A stretch of 64,000 nucleotides of DNA from Streptomyces sp. NBC_00250 (GTDB lineage Bacteria; Actinomycetota; Actinomycetes; Streptomycetales; Streptomycetaceae), in assembly GCF_036192275.1 (NCBI RefSeq), contig NZ_CP108088.1:7860001-7924000 (forward strand), given 5' to 3'. The number at the start of each line of letters is the position of its first letter. Within the stretch, counting starts at the first letter, position 1. The position numbers and the translations under genes were made by a program. Below the pieces are notes generated by a model. The model did not search any database, had not been told where the DNA came from, and worked only from the letters and a program-made list of their open reading frames with translations. This document shows, piece by piece, positions 5,498 through 64,000 of the stretch.

Positions 5498-7231
5498 GTG
5501 AGCGCCACCATCACCCCCGTCGACGCGTCCGGAGCCGACACCGCACCCACGCCGGGCTCCCGGCTGTCCCGGCTGCGGCGGTTCGTACGGCCCGGGGCGG
5601 CTCTGCTGTCCGGGTTCCTGCTCTACCTGAGCTTCCCGCCACGCCCCCTGTGGTGGCTCGCCCTGCCGGCCTTCGCGTTGCTCGGCTGGACCCTGCGGGG
5701 CCGTCGGCTCCGCGCCGGGTTCGGCCTCGGGTACCTCGCCGGGCTCGGCTTCCTGATGCCCCTCCTCGTCTGGACCGGCGAGGAGGTCGGCGCGGGCCCC
5801 TGGCTCGCCCTCGCCGCGGTCGAGGCGCTCTTCGTCGCCGTCGCCGGCCTCGGCATCGCGGCGGTCTCCCGGCTTCCGCTGTGGCCGGTCTTCGCCGCCG
5901 CCGTGTGGATCCTCGCGGAGGGGGCACGCGCGCGCGTGCCGTTCGGCGGCTTCCCCTGGGGCAAGATCGCCTTCGGTCAGGCCGACGGGATCTTCCTGCC
6001 ACTCGCCGCCGTGGGCGGCACCCCGGTGCTCGGCTTCGCCGTCGCCCTCTGCGGCTTCGGCCTGTACGAGACGTACCGCCAGATCCAGGCCCGCCGGGCC
6101 CCGGGCACGGGCACGGCATCCGACACGGACGCCACCCCTGGTACGGACGCCACCCCTGGTACGGACGCCGCCACCGTCGCGGACACCGCCACTGGTGCGG
6201 ACAGTGCCTCCGGTACCCGCACCGGCGCCAGGACCCTCCCGCGCGGCCCGCTCGTCGCCGCCGCGCTCGCCGTGCTCGTCCCGGTCACCGGCGCCCTCGC
6301 GGCGCTGCCGCTCGTCGACGACTCGGCCGAGGACGGCACCGCCACCGTTGCCGCCGTGCAGGGCAACGTGCCCCGCCTCGGCTTCGACTTCAACGCCCAG
6401 CGCCGGGCCGTCCTCGACAACCACGCCGCCCGCACCCGCGAACTCGCCGAGGACGTGAAGGCCGGCCGCGCGCCCCAGCCCGACTTCGTCCTCTGGCCCG
6501 AGAACTCCTCGGACATCGACCCGTACGCGAACGCCGACGCGGCCGACGTCATCGAGGGCGCCGTCCGGAAGATCGGCGTACCGACCGTGGTCGGCGCGGT
6601 CATCGCGCCCGAGACCGGCAAGCTCCGCAACACCCTCATCGAGTGGGACCCGGACCGCGGCCCCGTCGCCACGTACGACAAGCGGCACGTCCAGCCCTTC
6701 GGCGAGTACATCCCGATGCGGTCCTTCGTCCGCATCTTCAACAGCAACGTCGACCGTGTGAGCCGCGACTTCGGCGCCGGCACGAAGATCGGCGTCTTCG
6801 ACCTGGCCGGTACGAAGGTGGGCCTCGCCACCTGCTACGAGGCGGCCTTCGACTGGGCCGTGCGGGACACCGTCACGCATGGCGCCCAGCTCATCTCCGT
6901 ACCCAGCAACAACGCCACCTTCGGGCGCAGCGAGATGACCTACCAGCAGCTCGCGATGTCCCGGGTACGGGCCGTCGAGCACAGCCGGTCGGTCGTCGTG
7001 CCCGTCACCAGCGGGGTCAGCGCCATCATCCGCCCCGACGGCGAGATCGTCGCGGAGACGAAGATGTTCACCCCGGACGTCCTGGTCGAGAAGGTGCCGC
7101 TGCGCTCCTCGCTGACCCCGGCGACCCGGATGGGCACCCTGCCGGAGGCCCTGCTCGTGGCGCTCGCGGCGGCCGGTCTCGGCTGGTCGGCCTTCCGTTC
7201 GGTACGGGCCGGGCGCACGCGGTCGGAGTGA
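5498..7231 (+). CDS. lnt: apolipoprotein N-acyltransferase
   Basis: A 577-residue integral membrane enzyme that N-acylates the diacylglyceryl-Cys of lipoproteins. An N-terminal block of TM helices is followed by a nitrilase/CN-hydrolase domain and a final TM near the C-terminus. The catalytic triad is visible: Glu335 in LWPENSS, Lys395 in YDKRHVQPFGEY and Cys446 in ATCYEAAFDW. An insert around residues 205-230 carries an in-frame repeat of TDATPG units, absent from canonical Lnt. The GTG start at 5498 fits the family N-terminus. The stop codon lies in the first copy of a 36-bp tandem repeat. Confidence 0.93.
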   Translation: MSATITPVDASGADTAPTPGSRLSRLRRFVRPGAALLSGFLLYLSFPPRPLWWLALPAFALLGWTLRGRRLRAGFGLGYLAGLGFLMPLLVWTGEEVGAGPWLALAAVEALFVAVAGLGIAAVSRLPLWPVFAAAVWILAEGARARVPFGGFPWGKIAFGQADGIFLPLAAVGGTPVLGFAVALCGFGLYETYRQIQARRAPGTGTASDTDATPGTDATPGTDAATVADTATGADSASGTRTGARTLPRGPLVAAALAVLVPVTGALAALPLVDDSAEDGTATVAAVQGNVPRLGFDFNAQRRAVLDNHAARTRELAEDVKAGRAPQPDFVLWPENSSDIDPYANADAADVIEGAVRKIGVPTVVGAVIAPETGKLRNTLIEWDPDRGPVATYDKRHVQPFGEYIPMRSFVRIFNSNVDRVSRDFGAGTKIGVFDLAGTKVGLATCYEAAFDWAVRDTVTHGAQLISVPSNNATFGRSEMTYQQLAMSRVRAVEHSRSVVVPVTSGVSAIIRPDGEIVAETKMFTPDVLVEKVPLRSSLTPATRMGTLPEALLVALAAAGLGWSAFRSVRAGRTRSE

Positions 7232-7313
7232 AGCGGAACCCGGGCCGGGCGCACGCGGTCGGAGTGAAGCGGAGTCCGGGCCGGGCGCACGCGGTCCGAG
7301 TGGAGCGGAACCG
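7206..7313 (+). repeat. 36-bp tandem direct repeat, three copies, spanning the lnt stop
   Basis: Three consecutive 36-bp units begin at 7206, 7242 and 7278, each opening gggccgggcgcacgcggtc. The period is a multiple of three, so the lnt reading frame is preserved across copies. The lnt TGA (7229-7231) lies in copy 1 and an equivalent TGA lies in copy 2, while copy 3 carries TGG there. Copies differ by a few substitutions. The array fills most of the space before the NUDIX gene. Confidence 0.9.
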
Positions 7314-7366: not shown

Positions 7367-7849
7367 ATGGCTACCCCTGACTTCATCCGGGCCCTGCGCG
7401 AGACTGCCGGCCACCAGCTCCTCTTCCTACCCGGGGTGAGCGCCGTCGTGTTCGACGACCGGGGCCGGGTGCTGCTCGGCCGACGCGCCGACAACGGACG
7501 CTGGGCGGTCATCGGGGGCATCGTCGAGCCCGGCGAGCAGCCCGCCGACTGCGCGGTGCGCGAGGTCTTCGAGGAGACCGCCGTGCGGTGCGAGGTCGAG
7601 CGGATCGTGCTCGTCGAGACCCTCCGCAAGCCCGTCGTCTACCCCAACGGCGACCAGTGCCAGTTCCTGGACGTCTCCTTCCGCTGCCGCGCGGTGGGCG
7701 GTGAGGCACGGGTGAACGACGACGAGTCGACCGAGGTCGGCTGGTTCGACGTGGACGACCTGCCGGAGATGAAGCGTTTCTCGTATCTGCGGATCGAGAA
7801 GGCGCTGGCCGACGAACCCACATGGTTCCGCACCACAGAAACCAGCTGA
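7367..7849 (+). CDS. NUDIX hydrolase
   Basis: A 160-residue protein with a complete Nudix box at residues 51-73: Gly51, Glu57, then REVFEE at 65-70. It hydrolyses an X-linked nucleoside diphosphate; the substrate cannot be read from the sequence. The N-terminal half (FIRALRETAGHQLLFLPGV) is typical of actinobacterial MutT-like proteins that lack extra domains. The ATG at 7367 follows the tandem repeat. It is probably transcribed alone. Confidence 0.92.
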   Translation: MATPDFIRALRETAGHQLLFLPGVSAVVFDDRGRVLLGRRADNGRWAVIGGIVEPGEQPADCAVREVFEETAVRCEVERIVLVETLRKPVVYPNGDQCQFLDVSFRCRAVGGEARVNDDESTEVGWFDVDDLPEMKRFSYLRIEKALADEPTWFRTTETS

Positions 7850-53809: not shown

Positions 53810-55201
<1,392 letters not shown>

Positions 55202-55236
55202 GGGGAACCTCTTCGTGATGGGTGTGGAGAGGGGCG

Positions 55237-56118
55237 TCACTTGACCGCACCTGCGGTGAGGCCGGCGACGAGATAGCGCTGGAGGAGCAGGAAGCCGACG
55301 ACGACGGGGACGCTCACCACGAGGGAGGCGGCCATCACCTGGTTCCAGTAGACGTCGTTCTGGGTGGCGTACCCCTGGAGACCGACGGCGAGGGTGCGGG
55401 TGGTGTCGTTGGTCATGACGGAGGCGAAGAGGACCTCGCCCCAGGCGGTCATGAAGGCGTAGACGGCGACGGCGATGATGCCGGGGGACGCGGCCGGGAC
55501 GATCACGCGGAACAGCGCGCTGAGCGGCCCGCAGCCGTCGACCTTGGCGGCCTCGTCGAGCTCGCGCGGGATCGAGTCGAAGTAGCCGGTCAGCATCCAG
55601 ATGGAGAACGGCAGCGAGAAGGTCAGATAGGTGAGGATCAGGCCTTCCCGGGAGCCGAAGAGGGCGATGCCGGTGGCGTTGCCGATGTTGACGTAGATGA
55701 GGAAGAGCGGCAGCAGGAAGAGGATGCCGGGGAACATCTGGGTGGACAGCACCGTGACCGTGAAGACCCGCTTGCCGCGGAAGGTGTAGCGGCTGACGGC
55801 GTACGCGGCGAAGATCGCGACCACCACCGAGCACACCGTGGCCGCGCCCGCGACCACGATCGAGTTCACGAAGTAGTCGGCGAGCGGGACGGTTTCCCAG
55901 ATGTCGAAGTACGGGCGGAGCGTGAGCCCGGAGGGGATCCACTCGAACTTCCCCGAGACGTCCTCCAGCGGCTTCAGGGAGCTGGAGACCATGACGTACA
56001 CCGGCAGCACCACGAAGGCGGTGAGCAGGGTGAGGAAGATCCGCCGGGTCCAGAGGAACGAGCGGGGTGCCGCCATGGGGGAGCGCGGAGCCGCGCGCCG
56101 GGATGCGTGCTCAGACAT
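55237..56118 (-). CDS. carbohydrate ABC transporter permease (MalG/CebG type)
   Basis: A 293-residue permease with six TM helices. The EAA loop reads [20 protein letters not shown]. The N-terminal part carries [16 protein letters not shown] and the C-terminal ends [12 protein letters not shown], the CUT1-family hallmark. It forms a heterodimer with the product of the gene upstream; an ATPase is not encoded here, so a shared MsiK-type ATPase is expected. The start overlaps the previous gene's stop by 8 bp. Confidence 0.93.
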
Positions 56119-57103
56119 CGGAGGTCTTCCTTCCGCGGCTGGTGAGCAGGAGGTAGACGCCCGTGACGACGAGGAGGAAGAGCAGCAGGAGCACGGACAT
56201 GGCCGAGCCGGTGCCGAAGTTCCAGGTCTGGAAGGACGACTGGTAGATGTGGAGCGAGATCAGGTCCGCTGCCTCGGGCGCCGCCTTGCCGAAGAGCACG
56301 AACGGCGTGTTGAAGTCGTTGAACGTCCAGAGGAACAGGACGAGCACGAGGACCTGGTTGACGGAGCGCAGCGACGGCAGGGTGATGTGCCGGATCTGCT
56401 TCCAGACGCCGGCGCCGTCGAGCGCCGCCGCCTCGTACATGTCCCGCGGGATGTTCTGCAGGCCGGCCATGACGGTGAGGAAGGCGAAGGGCCAGCCCTT
56501 CCACACGGAGACGACGAGCAGGGTCCAGAAGGCGTTGTCGCCGATGAGCCAGAAGGCGGGGCTGTCGCCGATGCCGAGCTGGTCGTGGAGGACGTGGTTG
56601 ATGAGGCCGTTGTCCCGCTGGAACATGAACGCCCAGGTGATGACGGCGGCGTAGACGGGCAGGGCGTACGGGACCAGGAACAGGGTCCGCAGGAAGCCGC
56701 GGCCCTTGAAGTTCTCCTGGAGGAAGATCGCGGCGGCCGTTCCGAGGAACCAGCACAGCCCCACGGAGAGGACGGTGAACAGACACGTCGTCAGGAAGGA
56801 CTTCAGGAGCGCCTGCCCGACGGGGGCGTCGAAGTCGATCGCGACGGTGTAGTTGTCGAAACCCGACCAGGGAGCCTCGCCCCAGTTCCGGATGTAGAAC
56901 TGGGTGAGCTCCTTGAAGCTCATGGCGATGCCCATGAGCATCGGCACGAGGTGGACGAGGAGTTCGAGGAGCAGGGCGGGCAGGAGCAGCAGGTAGGGCA
57001 GTGCGATGCGGCGACGCCCGGAGCGGCGTGGTGCGCGTGCCTCTCCGGGTGTGGCCTTGCGCACCGCCGGCTCGGTCGGGTGAGCGACGGCGGTTTCGGT
57101 CAT
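56111..57103 (-). CDS. carbohydrate ABC transporter permease (MalF/CebF type)
   Basis: A 330-residue CUT1 permease. The start MTETAVAHPTEP is followed by an Arg-rich cytoplasmic stretch, six TMs and the EAA motif MYEAAALDGAGVWKQIRHIT. The F-subunit hallmark AFWTLLVVSVWKGWPFAFL is present. It lies 11 bp after the binding-protein gene and overlaps the partner permease by 8 bp, so the three are one operon. Confidence 0.93.
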   Translation of the reverse strand: MTETAVAHPTEPAVRKATPGEARAPRRSGRRRIALPYLLLLPALLLELLVHLVPMLMGIAMSFKELTQFYIRNWGEAPWSGFDNYTVAIDFDAPVGQALLKSFLTTCLFTVLSVGLCWFLGTAAAIFLQENFKGRGFLRTLFLVPYALPVYAAVITWAFMFQRDNGLINHVLHDQLGIGDSPAFWLIGDNAFWTLLVVSVWKGWPFAFLTVMAGLQNIPRDMYEAAALDGAGVWKQIRHITLPSLRSVNQVLVLVLFLWTFNDFNTPFVLFGKAAPEAADLISLHIYQSSFQTWNFGTGSAMSVLLLLFLLVVTGVYLLLTSRGRKTSDV

Positions 57104-57114
57104 GGTGGGGCGGC

Positions 57115-58419
57115 CTACTTCTTGGGCATCTGCTGCTGGGCCTTTTCGAGCTTGGCCTTCACGGACTCCGTGGTGACGGGGCGGCCGGCGGCGGCGTCGG
57201 CGAACAGCTCCTTGACCGCGGTGCCCACGACCGTCTCGAACTGCGACTCCTCGGGCACCTGCGGCAGGGCCGCGGCGCTGGTGGCGAGGGTGTCGCGGAT
57301 GACGGCGAGCGACGGGGCGGCGAAGCCGGGGTCCTTCTGGGCGCTCTTGACCGGCGGGACGGAGCCGTACGCCTTGTTGAGGACGATCTGCTCCTCGTCG
57401 CTCGTCATGTACTTCACGAACTTCAGCGCGCCGTCGAGGTTCTTGGTGTTCTTGAAGACGGCCAGGTTGATGCCGGCGACCATCGAGTTGGTCTGGGCGC
57501 CCTGACCGGGCTTGCCCGACGGGACCGGGGCGGGAGCCACACCCCACTCCTCCGGGCCCATGCCCTGCGAGGAGAAGGTCTGCGACGGGGTCTGCCACAG
57601 GACCATGCCGGTCTTGTTCTTGGCGAAGTCGCTGAGGGACTGGTTCTGGGCGTACTCGGCGTTGCCGGGGGCGACGATCTTCTGCACGGCCATCAGGTCG
57701 ACGTACTGCTTGACGGCGGCGACGGCACCGTCGGACGTGAAGTCGGGCTTGCCGTCGGCGGTGAAGAAGTCGGCGCCGTGCTGCTTTCCGAGGACGAAGA
57801 CCTGGTGGATGTTGTTGGAGAGGTTGGAGCCCTCGACCCCGATGCCCGACTTTCCGTTCTTGCTGAGCTTCTTGCCGGCCGCGGTCACCTCGTCCCAGGT
57901 GGTCGGCGGCTTGGCTATGCCCGCGTCCTTGAACATCTGCTTGTTGTAGTAGAGCGCGTAGGCCATGGAGTAGAGCGGGACGGCGGCGGGGTCCTGGCCG
58001 GGGACGCCGGTGGAGCCGAGTGCGGAGTCGACGAAGCGGTCCTTGCCGCCGATGGCCTCCAGGTTCTTCGCGTCCCAGGGCAGGAGGGCGCCGGTGGACT
58101 GGAGCGAGGCGCTCCAGGTGTTGCCGATGTTGAGGATGTCGGGGCCCTGGCCGGAGGTCGTCGCGGTGAGGATCCGGTTGAGCAGGTCGGACCACGGGAT
58201 CACCTCCAGCTTGACCTTGATCCCGGTCTCCTTCTCGAACTGGTCGAGCTCGGGCTGCAGGACCTTCTTGTCGACCTCCAGGCTGGCGCCCTGGTTGGAG
58301 GCCCAGTAGGTGAGGGTCTTCGGCGCCGACTCGCTGCCTTCACCCCCGCCGCAGGCGGTGGCGGTGAAGGCGAGGGAGAGGGTGACGACACCGGTGACAG
58401 CGGCTCTGACTCTGCGCAT
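57115..58419 (-). CDS. extracellular sugar-binding lipoprotein of CUT1 ABC importer
   Basis: A 434-residue solute-binding lipoprotein. The signal peptide ends in a lipobox (SLAFTATACGGG). A family 1 binding fold follows, with TLTYWASNQGASLEVDKKVL, YNKQMFKDAGIAKPPTTWDE and MTSDEEQIVLNKAYGSVPPV. ATG 58419 has AGGAG at a good distance. It captures the oligosaccharide for the two permeases. It lies divergently from the ROK gene, whose product probably controls it. Confidence 0.93.
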   Translation of the reverse strand: MRRVRAAVTGVVTLSLAFTATACGGGEGSESAPKTLTYWASNQGASLEVDKKVLQPELDQFEKETGIKVKLEVIPWSDLLNRILTATTSGQGPDILNIGNTWSASLQSTGALLPWDAKNLEAIGGKDRFVDSALGSTGVPGQDPAAVPLYSMAYALYYNKQMFKDAGIAKPPTTWDEVTAAGKKLSKNGKSGIGVEGSNLSNNIHQVFVLGKQHGADFFTADGKPDFTSDGAVAAVKQYVDLMAVQKIVAPGNAEYAQNQSLSDFAKNKTGMVLWQTPSQTFSSQGMGPEEWGVAPAPVPSGKPGQGAQTNSMVAGINLAVFKNTKNLDGALKFVKYMTSDEEQIVLNKAYGSVPPVKSAQKDPGFAAPSLAVIRDTLATSAAALPQVPEESQFETVVGTAVKELFADAAAGRPVTTESVKAKLEKAQQQMPKK

Positions 58420-58493
58420 GGCTCCTGGGCCCTTTCGGGGACGAGGGGATCGCCGATGTGGTGGGCGTCTGGAGGCCTCGCCGTGACATCGGC

Positions 58494-58514
58494 TTAATTT
58501 AGGATGTGAGTTAA
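58494..58514. promoter_or_regulatory. imperfect palindrome, candidate ROK operator
   Basis: TTAATTTAG-gat-GTGAGTTAA is a 21-bp imperfect palindrome (6 of 9 arm positions match) in the AT-richer gap between the binding-protein gene and the divergent ROK gene. Position and composition fit a ROK/NagC-type operator. Confidence 0.5.
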
Positions 58515-58553
58515 ACCCCATGAGAAGGTCGCGTCAAGGCTTGTACTGCGGGT

Positions 58554-59897
58554 ATGTTGCAACGAACGACTTCAGAGACGGGGACCAAAGTGCACGCGAG
58601 AACTGGCCGCACGGTGCGTGACCTGCGGCGCGAGAACCGCACCGCCGTTCTGCGCAGGCTGTACTTCGACGGACCGATGAGCCGCCTCATGCTCGGCCCG
58701 GCGACCGGACTCAGCTCGGGCTCCGTCAGCAACGTGGTCGCCGAACTCGTCGCCGACGGCCTCGTCGAGGAGGCCGGCAGCGTCGACTCCGCGGGCGGGC
58801 GCCCCCGCACCCTCGTCAGGATCACGCCCGCCAGCGGCTTCATGATCGGCGTCGACATCGGCGAAACCCGGGTCCGGATCGAGCTGTTCGACCTCACCCT
58901 CACCGAACTCGCCCGCACTGAACGCCCGTTGGCCTGCTCCGGGCCCCGCACGGCCCGCTACGACGTCGATCTCGTCGTCGACCGTCTCCGCGAGGGCATC
59001 GCCGAGGTGCTGCGTCTCGCGGACGTACCGGCCGACCGCCTCATCGGCGTCGGCGTCGGCGTCCCCGGCATCGTCGCCCGCACCACCGACGACGGTGCCG
59101 TCGTGCACGGCCAGACCGTCGGCTGGGACGCCGTCCCCTTCGAGCGACTCCTCCGCGCCGCCGTCGACCTTCCCGAGTCCGTCCCGTACTGGATCGACAA
59201 CGGTGCCAAGACCCTCGGCCAGGCCGAGATGTGGTTCGGCGCCGGGCGGGGCGCGCGCAGCGCGGTGGTGGTCCTCTTCGGCTCGGGCGTCGGCGCGTGC
59301 GTGGTCACCGACCCGATGGGGCCGGGCCGGGCGATCGAGTGGGGTCATCTGACGGTACGGGTCCGGGGGCGGCGCTGCCGCTGCGGCGCCCAGGGCTGCC
59401 TGGAGGCGTACGCCGGAGCCGAAGCCCTCCTGGAGCGGTGGCGGGAGGCAGGTGGAGTGCCCCCGGCGGGCGCGGACGAGGAGACGGCGCTGACGGCGAT
59501 GCTGGCGGCGGCGTACCCGGCGGAGGCGGGGGCGGAGCCCGATGCCACCGCGGTCGCCGTCCTGGAGGAGACCGCCGAGTACCTGGGCGCCGGATTCGCC
59601 GACCTCATCAACCTCTTCCAGCCCGAGCGCATCCTGGTCGGCGGCTGGGCGGGCCTCCAGCTCGGCGCCCGCTTCCTCGAATCCGTGTCCGGCCACGCAC
59701 GTGAGTACGCGCTCAAGTACCCGGCCAGCCGCACCGACATCGGTCTCGGCACCCTCGGCCCGGAGGCGGTCACGGTCGGCGCGGCCCTGCTGCCGCTGGT
59801 CGACTTCTTCGCCCAGGGAGGCCGACGCCCCGAGAGCAAGCCCACCACCCCCGCCCCCGCCTGGCAGTCGGCCCTCCAGGACAGGGTCTCTCCCTGA
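58554..59897 (+). CDS. ROK family transcriptional regulator
   Basis: A 447-residue (435 from GTG 58590) repressor. The N-terminal winged helix has RLMLGPATGLSSGSVSNVVA. The ROK domain has GVDIGETRVRIELFDLTL, the sugar motif EWGHLTV and the zinc motif CRCGAQGCLEAY with all three cysteines. GTG 58590 has a better ribosome site (GGGGA) than ATG 58554. It probably binds the divergent promoter and responds to a sugar or sugar phosphate from the ABC importer. Confidence 0.9.
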   Translation: MLQRTTSETGTKVHARTGRTVRDLRRENRTAVLRRLYFDGPMSRLMLGPATGLSSGSVSNVVAELVADGLVEEAGSVDSAGGRPRTLVRITPASGFMIGVDIGETRVRIELFDLTLTELARTERPLACSGPRTARYDVDLVVDRLREGIAEVLRLADVPADRLIGVGVGVPGIVARTTDDGAVVHGQTVGWDAVPFERLLRAAVDLPESVPYWIDNGAKTLGQAEMWFGAGRGARSAVVVLFGSGVGACVVTDPMGPGRAIEWGHLTVRVRGRRCRCGAQGCLEAYAGAEALLERWREAGGVPPAGADEETALTAMLAAAYPAEAGAEPDATAVAVLEETAEYLGAGFADLINLFQPERILVGGWAGLQLGARFLESVSGHAREYALKYPASRTDIGLGTLGPEAVTVGAALLPLVDFFAQGGRRPESKPTTPAPAWQSALQDRVSP

Positions 59898-60160
59898 GAC
59901 GACCGGCCCTCCCCCGGCGGCGGGAGTGAGGGGTTCGGCGCGACGACCGTCGTGATCGTTCCGGCCACCTCGGCGAAGCCCACCGCGGACCGGCCCGTAC
60001 GCCGATCCGGTCGCACGCCGTCACGGTCCCCTGCGTGGCCGCTGCTTGAGGCCCGACGCCGGTGAGCGTGCCGACCGAGCGTTGGCCCGACCGGGTCCTC
60101 CGTACGGGCGTCCGCCGGTGTCGCCCCTCGGCCGGCCGCCGCCCCGGTGAGGATCGGGCC

Positions 60161-61015
60161 ATGGGCGTCGTCCTGCCGGTCCTCTTCTCGCTGTTCGCCG
60201 CGTTGAGCAACGCGCTGGCCACGGTGCTGCAGCGGCGTGCGGCGCTCACCGTCCCGCAGTCCCACTCCTTCCGGCCCGGACTGATCCTCGACCTGCTGCA
60301 CCGCCCCCTGTGGCTGGCCGGCATCCTCGCCGTCATCGCCGCCGGTGTCGGACAGGCGGCCGCCCTCGCGACCGGGCCGCTGGCCCTCGTACAGCCGCTT
60401 TTCGTACTCGAACTTCCCCTCGCCCTGCTGATCGCCACCCTCCTGACGCGCGAACGACTGCCCGCCCGGCTCTGGGCTGCCGTGGCAGGGGTCGTGCTCG
60501 GCCTCGGAGTGGCGCTGGTGGCCGCCTCGCCCACCGGCAACCGCACCCGGGTGGAACTGGACCGCTGGGTACCGGTCCTGGTGGCCTGCGCCGTCGCCGT
60601 GGTGGCCCTCGCCGCCATCGGACTCCGCAGGCCGCCCGGCCGCGCGAGGGCCGGGTGTCTGGGGGCCGCGACGGCGATCTGCTACGCGCTCACGGCCGCC
60701 CTCATGAAGACGTCCATGCACATCCTCGGCGACGGCGGCATCGGCGCCTTCCTGACGGCCTGGCAGACCTATGCCTTCTGCGCGGCGGGGATCGCGGCCC
60801 TCCTGCTGCTCGAACACGCCATGCAGGGCGGTCCGCTCGTCGCCTCACAGCCCGCCCTGACCCTCGGCGACGCGACCGTGAGCCTGAGCCTCGGTGTCCT
60901 GCTGTACGAGGAGCACGTACGGGCCGGCTGGTGGCTGCTGCCCCAGCTGGCGGGGATCGCACTGATCGTCCTCGGGGTGTTCACGCTGGCTCGCAGCGGA
61001 GTCGGAACGACCTGA
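60161..61015 (+). CDS. DMT family transporter
   Basis: A 284-residue protein with ~9-10 TM helices. It is of the same DMT subfamily as 27124-28029 (opening SLFAALSNALATVLQRRAAL, LVQPLFVLELPLALLIATLL) but a clear paralogue. Substrate unknown. ATG 60161 with GAGG upstream is preferred to the in-frame ATG region at 60062. It is convergent with the lanthipeptide permease gene, 19 bp away. The 263-bp gap before it shows no gene. Confidence 0.82.
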   Translation: MGVVLPVLFSLFAALSNALATVLQRRAALTVPQSHSFRPGLILDLLHRPLWLAGILAVIAAGVGQAAALATGPLALVQPLFVLELPLALLIATLLTRERLPARLWAAVAGVVLGLGVALVAASPTGNRTRVELDRWVPVLVACAVAVVALAAIGLRRPPGRARAGCLGAATAICYALTAALMKTSMHILGDGGIGAFLTAWQTYAFCAAGIAALLLLEHAMQGGPLVASQPALTLGDATVSLSLGVLLYEEHVRAGWWLLPQLAGIALIVLGVFTLARSGVGTT

Positions 61016-61034
61016 TACCGACCGGAGCGGTGCG

Positions 61035-61970
61035 TCATTCCGGACGGCTGAAGCGTCGCGCCGCCCAGAGCAGGGCGACGGCGCCGATGACGAGGAGGAG
61101 GCCCGCTTCGAGGGGGAGGGGAGGCTGCCGGCCGGCCCACTCGACGCCGGTGGTCGCCCGCTGGTCGGGTACGCGGTAGGCGATGCACCGGCGCAGGAGG
61201 TCCACGGCGAGGGCGAGGGGGTTGGCGCCGGCGAGCGTGTGGGCCCAGCCGGGCAGGGCCCGCAGGGGGAAGAAGCCGCCGGAGAGGAACAGCAGCGGCA
61301 TCATGACCACGCCCAGGAGGGTATGGAACGTCTCCGCCCTGCGGAGGGACACGGCCAGGGTCAGGGCCAAGGCGGTGATCGTGAACGAGGCCAGGATCAT
61401 GCCGCCGAGCAGCAGGACCAGGAGGATCGGGTCGTAGGGCAGGCCGACCGTGCCGACGAGGCCGAGCAGGAGAGCGCCTTGCGCAGTGGCGGTCATGGTG
61501 CCGCCCGCGCAGTGACCCAGGAGGAGGGTGGCGCGGCTGACGGGGGCCATGAGGAGCTCCCGCACGTAGCCGCTCTGCCGGTCGGTGATCAGACGGATGC
61601 CGACCATGATGGCCGGTGTCTGCACCGTCATCATCAGCATGCCGGGGAAGAGGTAGGTCTGGTAGCCGACGCCCAGTGAGGATCGGGGGATGAGGGCGGC
61701 GAGTCCGCCTCCCAGGACGAGGAGGTACAGCGTCGGGTGAAGCAGCATCAGCGCGGTGTGGGTGCGCTGGCCCGCCAGGCGCAGCAGGTCGCGGTGGACC
61801 AGGGCGTGGATCGCGCGCAGTTCGCGCCGGAGACGGGCCGCCCGCCCGCTGCCGCGGATGACGGAGTCGCCGGAGTCGCCGGAGTCGCCGGAGTCGCCGG
61901 GGGCGCCCGCGGCACCCGGGCCGTCGGGAGTGCCGACGGTGGCCGGGGCCTTCACGGTGAGGTCGGTCAT
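61035..61970 (-). CDS. venH: ABC-2 type permease of lanthipeptide cluster
   Basis: A 311-residue membrane protein with six TM helices of the ABC-2 family (LLHPTLYLLVLGGGLAALIP, FPGMLMMTVQTPAIMVGIRL, LFLSGGFFPLRALPGWAHTL). The N-terminal tail contains a run of GDS units (DNA: four 9-bp tandem units at about 61863-61900). Its start overlaps the stop of the ATPase gene by 4 bp, so the two form one exporter. By analogy with the venezuelin cluster, which has venT and venH, it exports the peptide or gives self-protection. The symbol rests on that analogy. Confidence 0.85.
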   Translation of the reverse strand: MTDLTVKAPATVGTPDGPGAAGAPGDSGDSGDSGDSVIRGSGRAARLRRELRAIHALVHRDLLRLAGQRTHTALMLLHPTLYLLVLGGGLAALIPRSSLGVGYQTYLFPGMLMMTVQTPAIMVGIRLITDRQSGYVRELLMAPVSRATLLLGHCAGGTMTATAQGALLLGLVGTVGLPYDPILLVLLLGGMILASFTITALALTLAVSLRRAETFHTLLGVVMMPLLFLSGGFFPLRALPGWAHTLAGANPLALAVDLLRRCIAYRVPDQRATTGVEWAGRQPPLPLEAGLLLVIGAVALLWAARRFSRPE

Positions 61971-63115
61971 CGGTGGCCGCCGGTTTCTGACGTGGTTGCG
62001 GACGACGGGGTGGGGGCCGTCGGCGTGTGGCCGGGCTCGGTGTCGAGACTGCGGCCGGTGTGGTGGAAGAAGACGTCGTCGAGCGTGGGCCGGGCCGCGG
62101 AAGCGGCGTGTACGGCGATGCCGTGGCGTTGCAGTGCCGCGCAGAGGCGCGGAATCCATGTGCTGCCGTCCGGCACCCGCAGGGAGACTCCGCCGGCGTC
62201 CGCGGTGACGGCCCGGTCCGGCGGAACGATGCCGCGCACGATCCGTAGCGCTGCCGGGTCGTCGCCCGTACGCAGGACCACCCGGTCGTCTCCGATCGCC
62301 GCCTTCAGCGCGAGGGGCGTGCCCCGCGCCACCACACGGCCGCGGTCGATGATGGCGATGCGATCGCAGTGCTCCGCCTCCTCCAGGTAGTGGGTGGTGA
62401 CGAAGAGCGTGCTGCCGTCACGGTCGCGCAGCGCGCGCAGATGCTCCCAGACCCGGGCACGGGCGTGCGGGTCGAGGCCGGTGGTCGGCTCGTCCAGGAA
62501 CAGCACCCGGGGGGAGTGCAGCAGGGCCCGGGCGATCTCCAGGCGCCGCCGCATGCCCCCCGACAGGGTGCGTACGGGGGAGCGCCGCCGGTCGGTCAGC
62601 CCGGCCGTCTCGAGTACCTCCGCGCCGCGCGAGCGGGCACGGCGGCCGGACAGCCCGTAGAGGCGTGCGTGGATGAACAGGTTCTGTTCGGCTGTCAGGT
62701 CCGCATCCAGAGCACTGTGCTGGAAGAGCATGCCGACGCGTCGCCGTACCTCGTGGGGCCGACCGAGCACGTCGACGCCGGCGACGGTGGCCTGACCGGC
62801 GGTGGGTCGGGCCAGGGCACACAGGACGGCGATGGTGGTGGACTTCCCGGCGCCGTTGGGCCCGAGGAAGGCGAACGTCTCGCCCTGCGGCACGTCCAGG
62901 TCCACGCCGCGCACGGCGAGGGTGGTCGTGCCGTGCGGGCCCGGATAGCTCTTGACCAGGCCGCGCGTGCTGATGGCGTACCCGGGCTCGGGAACGTGAT
63001 GGGCGACGGCCGTGCCGGCGGCGGCCGTCCTGAGCGCTGTGGGGGCGAGGTCGTCGCCACCGGCGGTCGGTCGCACGGGGTCTGGTCGGTCCTCTTCACC
63101 GGCGGGTAGCTGCAT
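61967..63115 (-). CDS. venT: ABC transporter ATP-binding protein of lanthipeptide cluster
   Basis: A 382-residue ATPase. Walker A is FLGPNGAGKSTT, the signature LSGGMRRRLEIA and Walker B VLFLDEPTTGLD. The H-loop follows in VTTHYLEEAEHC. A C-terminal DrrA-type extension (about residues 265-382) is present. ATG 63115 gives MQLPAGEEDRPD; the longer frame to 63154 is not needed. It lies 90 bp downstream of the precursor gene and overlaps the permease gene. Transport of the lanthipeptide is inferred from position. Confidence 0.88.
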   Translation of the reverse strand: MQLPAGEEDRPDPVRPTAGGDDLAPTALRTAAAGTAVAHHVPEPGYAISTRGLVKSYPGPHGTTTLAVRGVDLDVPQGETFAFLGPNGAGKSTTIAVLCALARPTAGQATVAGVDVLGRPHEVRRRVGMLFQHSALDADLTAEQNLFIHARLYGLSGRRARSRGAEVLETAGLTDRRRSPVRTLSGGMRRRLEIARALLHSPRVLFLDEPTTGLDPHARARVWEHLRALRDRDGSTLFVTTHYLEEAEHCDRIAIIDRGRVVARGTPLALKAAIGDDRVVLRTGDDPAALRIVRGIVPPDRAVTADAGGVSLRVPDGSTWIPRLCAALQRHGIAVHAASAARPTLDDVFFHHTGRSLDTEPGHTPTAPTPSSATTSETGGHR

Positions 63116-63205
63116 GCGGTCGGGTCCTCTTCTACGGGTTCGCCCTGGGAACATCCGGTCGGCGGCTTCCCGGGTGGGCCGCCGACCGGATGGTGGGTGC
63201 CTGTC

Positions 63206-63361
63206 CTACGCGCAGCTGATGCCGATACAGACCGTGTTGAGGAGGGTCAGCAGGCCGACGCACTCACACGTCGCCGCGAACGGTGCTGCGTCGACACCGA
63301 CCGGGTCGGTCTCCGGAAGGGCGTGGAGGTGGGCCAGCAGTTCGATGTCGTTGTTCTCCAT
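63206..63361 (-). CDS. venA: venezuelin-like class IV lanthipeptide precursor
   Basis: A 51-residue peptide. The leader MENNDIELLAHLHALPETDP is followed by VGVDAAPFAA and the Cys/Thr/Ser-rich core TCECVGLLTLLNTVCIGISC-A. The core has four Cys (32, 34, 45, 50) and four Ser/Thr (31, 39, 43, 49), enough for lanthionine rings. From memory, the sequence is nearly identical to VenA of S. venezuelae, whose product venezuelin is made by the LanL synthetase VenL. A strong AAGGAG site lies 7 bp before ATG 63361. The synthetase gene is immediately upstream. Confidence 0.9.
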   Translation of the reverse strand: MENNDIELLAHLHALPETDPVGVDAAPFAATCECVGLLTLLNTVCIGISCA

Positions 63362-63406
63362 GGGCTTCTCCTTCGTTCTGTGAGCCGGCGGCTGACGTGC
63401 TGCCGC

Positions 63407-64000
63407 TCAGACCGGCTGCTGGACCATCCAGTGCCGGGGGTCTGCGTGACGGATCCGCAGGAGGAAGGCCAGGATTCCGGCGGATCCGTCGCTCCAGCTG
63501 GTCGAGACGTCCCCGTACTCGTTGGGGAAGACCACCTGGGCATGGCGGTGGGCCCTCTCGCCGAGGATGAGGCGGGCCAGGTCCTCGGCCATGGTCCGGT
63601 GGACCGGGTCGCCCGTGGCGTCGGCCATGTCGAGGAGGAAGTCGCCGTTGCCCGCAAGGCCGTGGCACTGGGCCAGGGCGGCGCGGGAGGCGCGCTCCGT
63701 GACGGCGTACGTACTGCGGCGGGCGAGGTCGCCGAACCTTTCGTCCCCGGTGGCCTGCCACAGCCGGACGAGGAAGGTACCGATGCCCGCCGCGCCGTGG
63801 CACCAGTACGGGGCCGTGGGCAGGTCCGCGGACCGGGCGGGCCACTGGGCGGCCTCGCCGGTGAGTACGGCGCAGTCCAGCACGTGCTCACCGGCCTCCA
63901 CCGCGAGGTCCATGTGCTCCGGGCGCCCCGAGACCCCAGCGGCGGCGAGGAGGAAGCAGCCGATGCCGGCCGTGCCGTGGGCGAAACCGAGGTAGCGTGT
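63407..64000 (-). CDS. venL: class IV lanthipeptide synthetase LanL, C-terminal part (cut by window edge)
   Basis: The last 197 residues of a LanC-type cyclase domain. LGFAHGTAGIGCFL carries the proposed catalytic His, YWCHGAAGIGTF the first zinc Cys, and QCHGLAGNGDFL the Cys-His pair; all three zinc ligands are present. The 5' end lies beyond the window, so the lyase and kinase domains expected of LanL cannot be seen. LanM or LanKC cyclases cannot be formally excluded, but the VenA-like precursor downstream argues for LanL. Confidence 0.88.
   Translation of the reverse strand, partial: TRYLGFAHGTAGIGCFLLAAAGVSGRPEHMDLAVEAGEHVLDCAVLTGEAAQWPARSADLPTAPYWCHGAAGIGTFLVRLWQATGDERFGDLARRSTYAVTERASRAALAQCHGLAGNGDFLLDMADATGDPVHRTMAEDLARLILGERAHRHAQVVFPNEYGDVSTSWSDGSAGILAFLLRIRHADPRHWMVQQPV

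Follow-up and report, generated by a model that had tools for sequence, protein, structure and literature searches.

The stretch of DNA analysed here, referred to as the window, comprises 64,000 nucleotides (G000:C1:7860001-7924000) of a Streptomyces genome of 9.27 Mb in two contigs. The region 60800-64000 of the window was read and its open reading frames were listed, and the remainder of the synthetase gene was read on the same contig (L004). Between positions 61035 and 64000, four genes follow each other on the minus strand in the order lanL (C-terminal part), lanA, lanT and lanH, accompanied by a stem-loop:

63407..64000, minus strand: C-terminal part of lanL, residues 713-909 and stop (197 residues), recognized by NF038150 and Pfam domains
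63206..63361, minus strand: lanA, 51-residue precursor of the VenA family, recognized by NF038147 and by relatives at 68 loci
63152..63192, minus strand: predicted stem-loop directly 3' of the lanA stop, 15-bp perfect inverted repeat with an 11-base loop, from folding against shuffles
61967..63115 (longest frame to 63154), minus strand: lanT (venT-like), ABC transporter ATPase, ABC_tran 118 bits
61035..61970, minus strand: lanH (venH-like), ABC-2 type permease of 311 amino acids, ABC2_membrane 90.7 bits

The gene order of this set, with the ATPase gene T and the permease gene H following L and A, is that of the venezuelin type, and neither a protease nor a regulator gene is included. The same gene content and order are described for the venL-venA-venT-venH cluster of Streptomyces venezuelae (Goto et al., 2010; PMC2843593; what is taken from this and the other papers cited below refers to excerpts of them). 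A first-pass annotation of the sequence had proposed a minus-strand order of synthetase C-terminus, precursor, ABC ATPase and ABC permease and a match to the venezuelin gene content. The former is borne out by the coordinates listed above and the latter by the gene order and the profile matches. Chance can be ruled out for the cluster parts from the profile scores for LanL (far over its cut-off), VenA, ABC_tran and ABC2_membrane. All four frames are open, the tested catalytic and ring residues are intact in this strain, and in the tests made on the locus and its relatives nothing was found that contradicts a class IV venezuelin-type assignment. The identification of the cluster is secure, and we place at about 96% the probability that this Streptomyces chromosome carries at the locus a class IV lanthipeptide cluster of the venezuelin type, complete with lanL, lanA, lanT and lanH. 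Its kind, the venezuelin type, is already known.

Lanthionine synthetase and transporter genes

The lanL gene runs past the window edge to G000:C1:7926136 and its full frame is located at L004:3407-6136, with 943 codons if the first possible start is used and 909 from the ATG that matches the numbering of VenL. The cluster had been annotated as intact except for the window edge, and indeed the missing N-terminal part of lanL was found on the same contig in an open frame. LanL matched the NCBIfam class IV model NF038150 with 1205.5 bits (cut-off 650), all 851 model positions being covered, and Pfam domains occur in the order RamC_N (201.6 bits), Pkinase (60.4) and LANC_like (141.5). RamC_N and Pkinase are situated beyond the window edge, and the lyase and kinase domains implied by the annotated cluster type are thereby both present. 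Cys779, Cys824 and His825, which we take to be the zinc ligands, reside in WCHG and CHG motifs inside the window, in line with the intact LanC-type ligands of the first-pass annotation. In the kinase domain, Lys254, Asp357, Asn362 and Asp375 are present and presumably fulfil the usual kinase motif roles. Lys51, His53, Arg83 and Tyr108, named as the lyase residues of VenL, occur in LanL at exactly the same numbers, and the three-domain build is likewise shared with VenL (PMC2843593).

Conservation of these residues was assessed in an alignment of 67 LanL rows, comprising the window and 66 relatives from the 68 loci described below; L011 (broken frame) and L071 (contig end) were left out. Lyase residues Lys51, His53, Arg83 and Tyr108 are kept in 66, 67, 62 and 66 rows, respectively, with Arg83 replaced in five, and kinase residues Lys254, Asp357, Asn362 and Asp375 in 66, 66, 66 and 67 rows. 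The candidate zinc ligands Cys779, Cys824 and His825 are kept in 66, 67 and 67 rows, partly by construction as rows were chosen by the CHG motif. In L011 (Streptomyces diastatochromogenes), the longest motif-bearing piece of the broken lanL frame has 420 residues and the precursor is intact; a sequencing error or decay are both possible.

The synthetase also matches the NCBIfam class III model, which raises the question of whether the cluster could be of the LanKC, labionin-forming type. The score of 515.1 bits is, however, below the cut-off of 575 for that model, as against the class IV score given above. In addition, zinc ligands are present in LanL and lacking in RamC (PMC2843593), and the precursor belongs to the VenA family. 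A class III cluster is therefore hardly conceivable here and we reject this assignment in favor of class IV. Among solved structures, LanL finds its best sequence match in 8car (1e-85), whose 865-residue entry is labelled a serine/threonine protein kinase; several entries for class III LanKC enzymes come next.

The ATPase LanT reached 315.8 bits with the TIGR01188 drrA subfamily model (cut-off 312.45). Its longest frame opens at 63154, inside the stem-loop, and the start is probably the methionine at residue 14 of this frame (63115), judged from the match to LanT, which begins at residue 14 in L006, L015 and L021 and earlier in L008, L016 and L099. The start of lanH overlaps the stop of lanT (ATGA), and the two genes adjoin each other in relatives too.

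The precursor and its predicted product

The lanA product matched the NCBIfam VenA family model NF038147 with 91 bits (E 4.2e-26, cut-off 35). Both this model and NF038150 match over their full or nearly full length and over cut-off, and the tests made revealed no departure from the family. The core contains Cys32, Cys34, Cys45 and Cys50 as well as Thr31, Thr39, Thr43 and Ser49 in venezuelin spacing, which are the four cysteines and four serine or threonine residues that had been counted in the first reading. The closest precursors retrieved are those of L006, L010 and G015, a genome of the same genus; two of 51 positions separate each of them from the window, all before residue 30. In G015 the differences are at positions 4 and 25, and we take the G015 precursor to be VenA in sequence. 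Residues 30-51 of the window precursor are identical in G015 and in nine of 56 other precursors of 51 residues.

Sixteen positions of VenA are named in the text of PMC2843593, namely 18, 25-32, 34, 39, 43, 45 and 49-51. Compared at these positions, LanA matches in 15, including all core Cys and Ser/Thr residues; the sole mismatch is position 25, Gly in VenA and Ala here, in agreement with the annotated near-identity with differences in the leader. The core is thus not different from that of venezuelin. It had further been suggested that the mature peptide is identical or nearly identical to venezuelin. With cleavage between residues 29 and 30, the preferred site in VenA (PMC2843593), the peptide would indeed be identical. 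This needs qualification, as position 25 sits at another site considered for VenA, 25-26 (PMC2843593); even with cleavage there, the ring part would be the same. The product is thus very probably venezuelin itself or a peptide that differs only outside the rings, and this strain would be one more host for a compound already described. Streptocollin from S. collinus Tu 365 (Iftime et al., 2015), a class IV compound grouped as venezuelin-like and called a moderate PTP1B inhibitor (PMC10676316), resembles it by description.

For VenL and VenA, four dehydrations and four overlapping rings have been demonstrated, including the chemistry and the ring assignment (PMC2843593). By likeness to that system, the LanL kinase domain most likely phosphorylates Thr31, Thr39, Thr43 and Ser49 of LanA, and the lyase domain would then eliminate the phosphates. 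The zinc-containing cyclase domain would join the four cysteines to the dehydro residues, resulting in four overlapping (methyl)lanthionine rings with the pattern 34-39, 45-49, 32-43 and 50-31 assigned for VenA. LanT and LanH may export the product, and a protease encoded elsewhere may cut off the leader, probably between residues 29 and 30. We infer that this strain expresses the cluster and exports and cleaves its product.

Relatives of the cluster and the stem-loop behind lanA

To collect relatives, genomes of 84,980 species were scanned for precursors, which were picked by exact 8-residue patterns of the window LanA. This yielded 68 loci. Streptomyces accounts for 63 of them, Actinomadura for two, and Microtetraspora, Streptosporangium and Planosporangium for one each. 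When 392 genomes were sampled within the genus of the window, 46 had a match, its own genome included; the venezuelin-type family is common. In 60 of the 68 loci lanL, lanA, lanT and lanH occur in the same order on one strand. The full order was not seen in the other eight: the contig ends before lanH in L037 and begins just before lanA in L071, and in L059, L060, L062, L066, L072 and L073 no lanT or lanH of the same type was found beside lanA.

The precursors of the 68 loci and the window were aligned (69 sequences; a script chose the start codon in five loci, and position 1 was set to Met throughout). None of the 69 lacks any of the eight ring residues, position 49 being occupied by Ser in 65 and by Thr in four. 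Thr31, Cys32, Cys34, Gly36, Leu38, Thr39, Asn42, Thr43, Cys45, Gly47 and Cys50 are invariant. As exact 8-residue patterns of the window precursor served to find the relatives, these figures lean high. The most variable positions are 4, 27, 29 and 30, where the commonest residue occurs in 38, 27, 35 and 36 of the 69 sequences; positions 27, 29 and 30 are at the proposed cleavage site. For the 57 precursors of exactly 51 residues, pN/pS (uncorrected, all pairs) amounts to 0.41 in residues 1-29 and to 0.25 in residues 30-51, the latter being under stronger constraint; these ratios share the lean towards conservation. In many streptomycetes, and in other actinobacterial families as well, the venezuelin core is kept by purifying selection and the ring pattern is fixed.

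Some of the more distant loci deviate in organization. The VenA core is almost unchanged in the two Actinomadura loci (L059 and L060), the leader is different and about 1.9 kb separate lanL from lanA; in L059 two large permease-ATPase (ABC) exporters take the place of lanT and lanH. In Planosporangium thailandense (L072:7303-8180), three VenA-like precursors lie in a row with starts at 7531, 7768 and 8001, their cores having insertions between the conserved ring residues, and a fourth small Cys-containing frame is present at 7303.

The stem-loop behind lanA in the window has a z-score of -4.0 (60 shuffles). When the window stretch was shuffled, a stem of at least 9 bp arose in five of 300 cases and one of 15 bp in none. 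The 75 bases after lanA were then compared in 70 sequences (68 loci, the window and G015; 60 dinucleotide shuffles each). The z-score is below -2 in 50 of the 70, and 49 contain a perfect stem of 9 bp or longer, for which the shuffle baseline of five in 300 comes from the window stretch alone. Among seven inspected loci outside Streptomyces or without lanT and lanH, the stem-loop is mostly absent (L059, L060, L066, L071, L072 and L073; z -0.6 to -1.9). The longest stem, a perfect one of 30 bp, is nevertheless that of Streptomyces sp. col6 (L062:8112-8186), where no lanT or lanH of the same type was found.

Alignment of the post-lanA region with MAFFT and RNAalifold gave no consensus structure (energy 0), as the alignment broke up. 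In a second approach, which favors pairing by construction, a consensus arm was placed on each separately folded sequence, succeeding for 53 of 70 and failing for 17. Paired changes were apparent at the stem among the 53 placed sequences, which are related to each other and whose pairs were taken from folding; of several such pairs, one is C-G in 28 and T-A in 17, another T-A in 34 and C-G in 15, and a third G-C in 44 and C-G in seven. The words inverted repeat, hairpin, stem-loop, terminator and intergenic do not occur in PMC2843593, and a literature search on stem-loops in connection with lanthipeptides and LanL found no paper, whereas one on venezuelin and terminators listed two. Rfam gave no match in 61000-64000 at gathering scores. 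In other lantibiotic operons, hairpins between lanA and the next gene act as partial terminators. By analogy, the stem-loop is likely a partial terminator that may limit or stabilize the transcript, such that more precursor than transporter would be made.

Flanking genes, loss of the cluster and the role of venezuelin

The cassette is neighbored by a DMT-family transporter gene (60062-61015) and, outside the window, by genes for SDR oxidoreductases (SDR1 and SDR2). As SDR1 immediately precedes lanL in the same orientation and short-chain dehydrogenases accompany certain clusters in each of the four lanthipeptide classes (PMC7268733), the SDR genes or the DMT transporter could be thought to belong to the cluster and to tailor or move the peptide. 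Synteny argues against this. At an identity of at least 70%, the DMT gene is found beside the cassette in five of the 68 loci and SDR1 in six, two of which are merely pieces. The flanks of the window, with DMT, sulfatase and SDR1 genes, recur around the cassette in five loci (L006, L008, L010, L015 and L016), SDR1 being nearly full length in the first four and a piece with 51 matching residues in L016. In G015, the cassette is placed directly between sulfatase and ROK genes, and neither DMT nor SDR1 nor SDR2 was found in the surrounding 19 kb. The window and G015 thus share the cassette site, with the SDR and DMT genes, which the window has in addition, standing outside the set; their membership in the cluster is extremely unlikely and was rejected. 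In the window itself, 53810-59897 looks like an ordinary sugar-uptake operon with genes for a family 1 glycosidase, a solute-binding protein and a divergent ROK regulator, and permease-like frames between.

The genome G004 of the same species has the flanks at 96-99% identity and lacks the cassette. Missing are 5,703 bases between the word CGGTG at L004:1028-1032 and its copy at 6731-6735, of which one copy was kept. The DMT gene remains, and the match to SDR1 ends at residue 241 of 327, the last 86 residues being removed. Since the junction truncates SDR1, which is almost complete in four of the loci with shared flanks, a deletion in G004 is the simplest reading, simpler than an insertion. 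Arrival of the cassette at this site as a mobile unit was also considered and rejected, as the G004 junction cuts SDR1 and the shared word has just five bases. That G004 retains the DMT gene together with a truncated SDR1, the cassette being gone, again speaks against these genes as members of the set.

The loss in G004 was evidently tolerated, and the cluster might accordingly be decaying or non-functional in the strain studied here. However, the open frames and intact residues noted above and the absence of a TTA codon from lanL render this very improbable, and we hold to a complete cluster.

The natural product was undetected in S. venezuelae or S. lividans, growth and development were unaffected by deletion of venA or venL, and venezuelin showed no antimicrobial activity, according to excerpts of PMC2843593; a 2023 review agrees on production and activity (PMC10676316). 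One tentative idea is that venezuelin is a conserved signalling or developmental peptide rather than an antibiotic, its dose being set by the partial terminator. If so, the negative antibiosis results for S. venezuelae would be expected. The lack of an effect of the venA and venL deletions on growth or development speaks against this, as does the life of G004 without the cluster, and we consider the idea rather unlikely. To the known picture, the stem-loop in most copies and the same-species genome without the cluster are small additions. Combined with the natural spread of precursors, they offer a setting for asking about the role of venezuelin.

The same genome contains a second lanthionine synthetase outside the window (G000:C1:8076645-8080145; L005:5646-9146). 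It is of the class II LanM type, with DUF4135 (415.9 bits) and LANC_like domains, and a prolyl oligopeptidase gene is located about 6 kb away.
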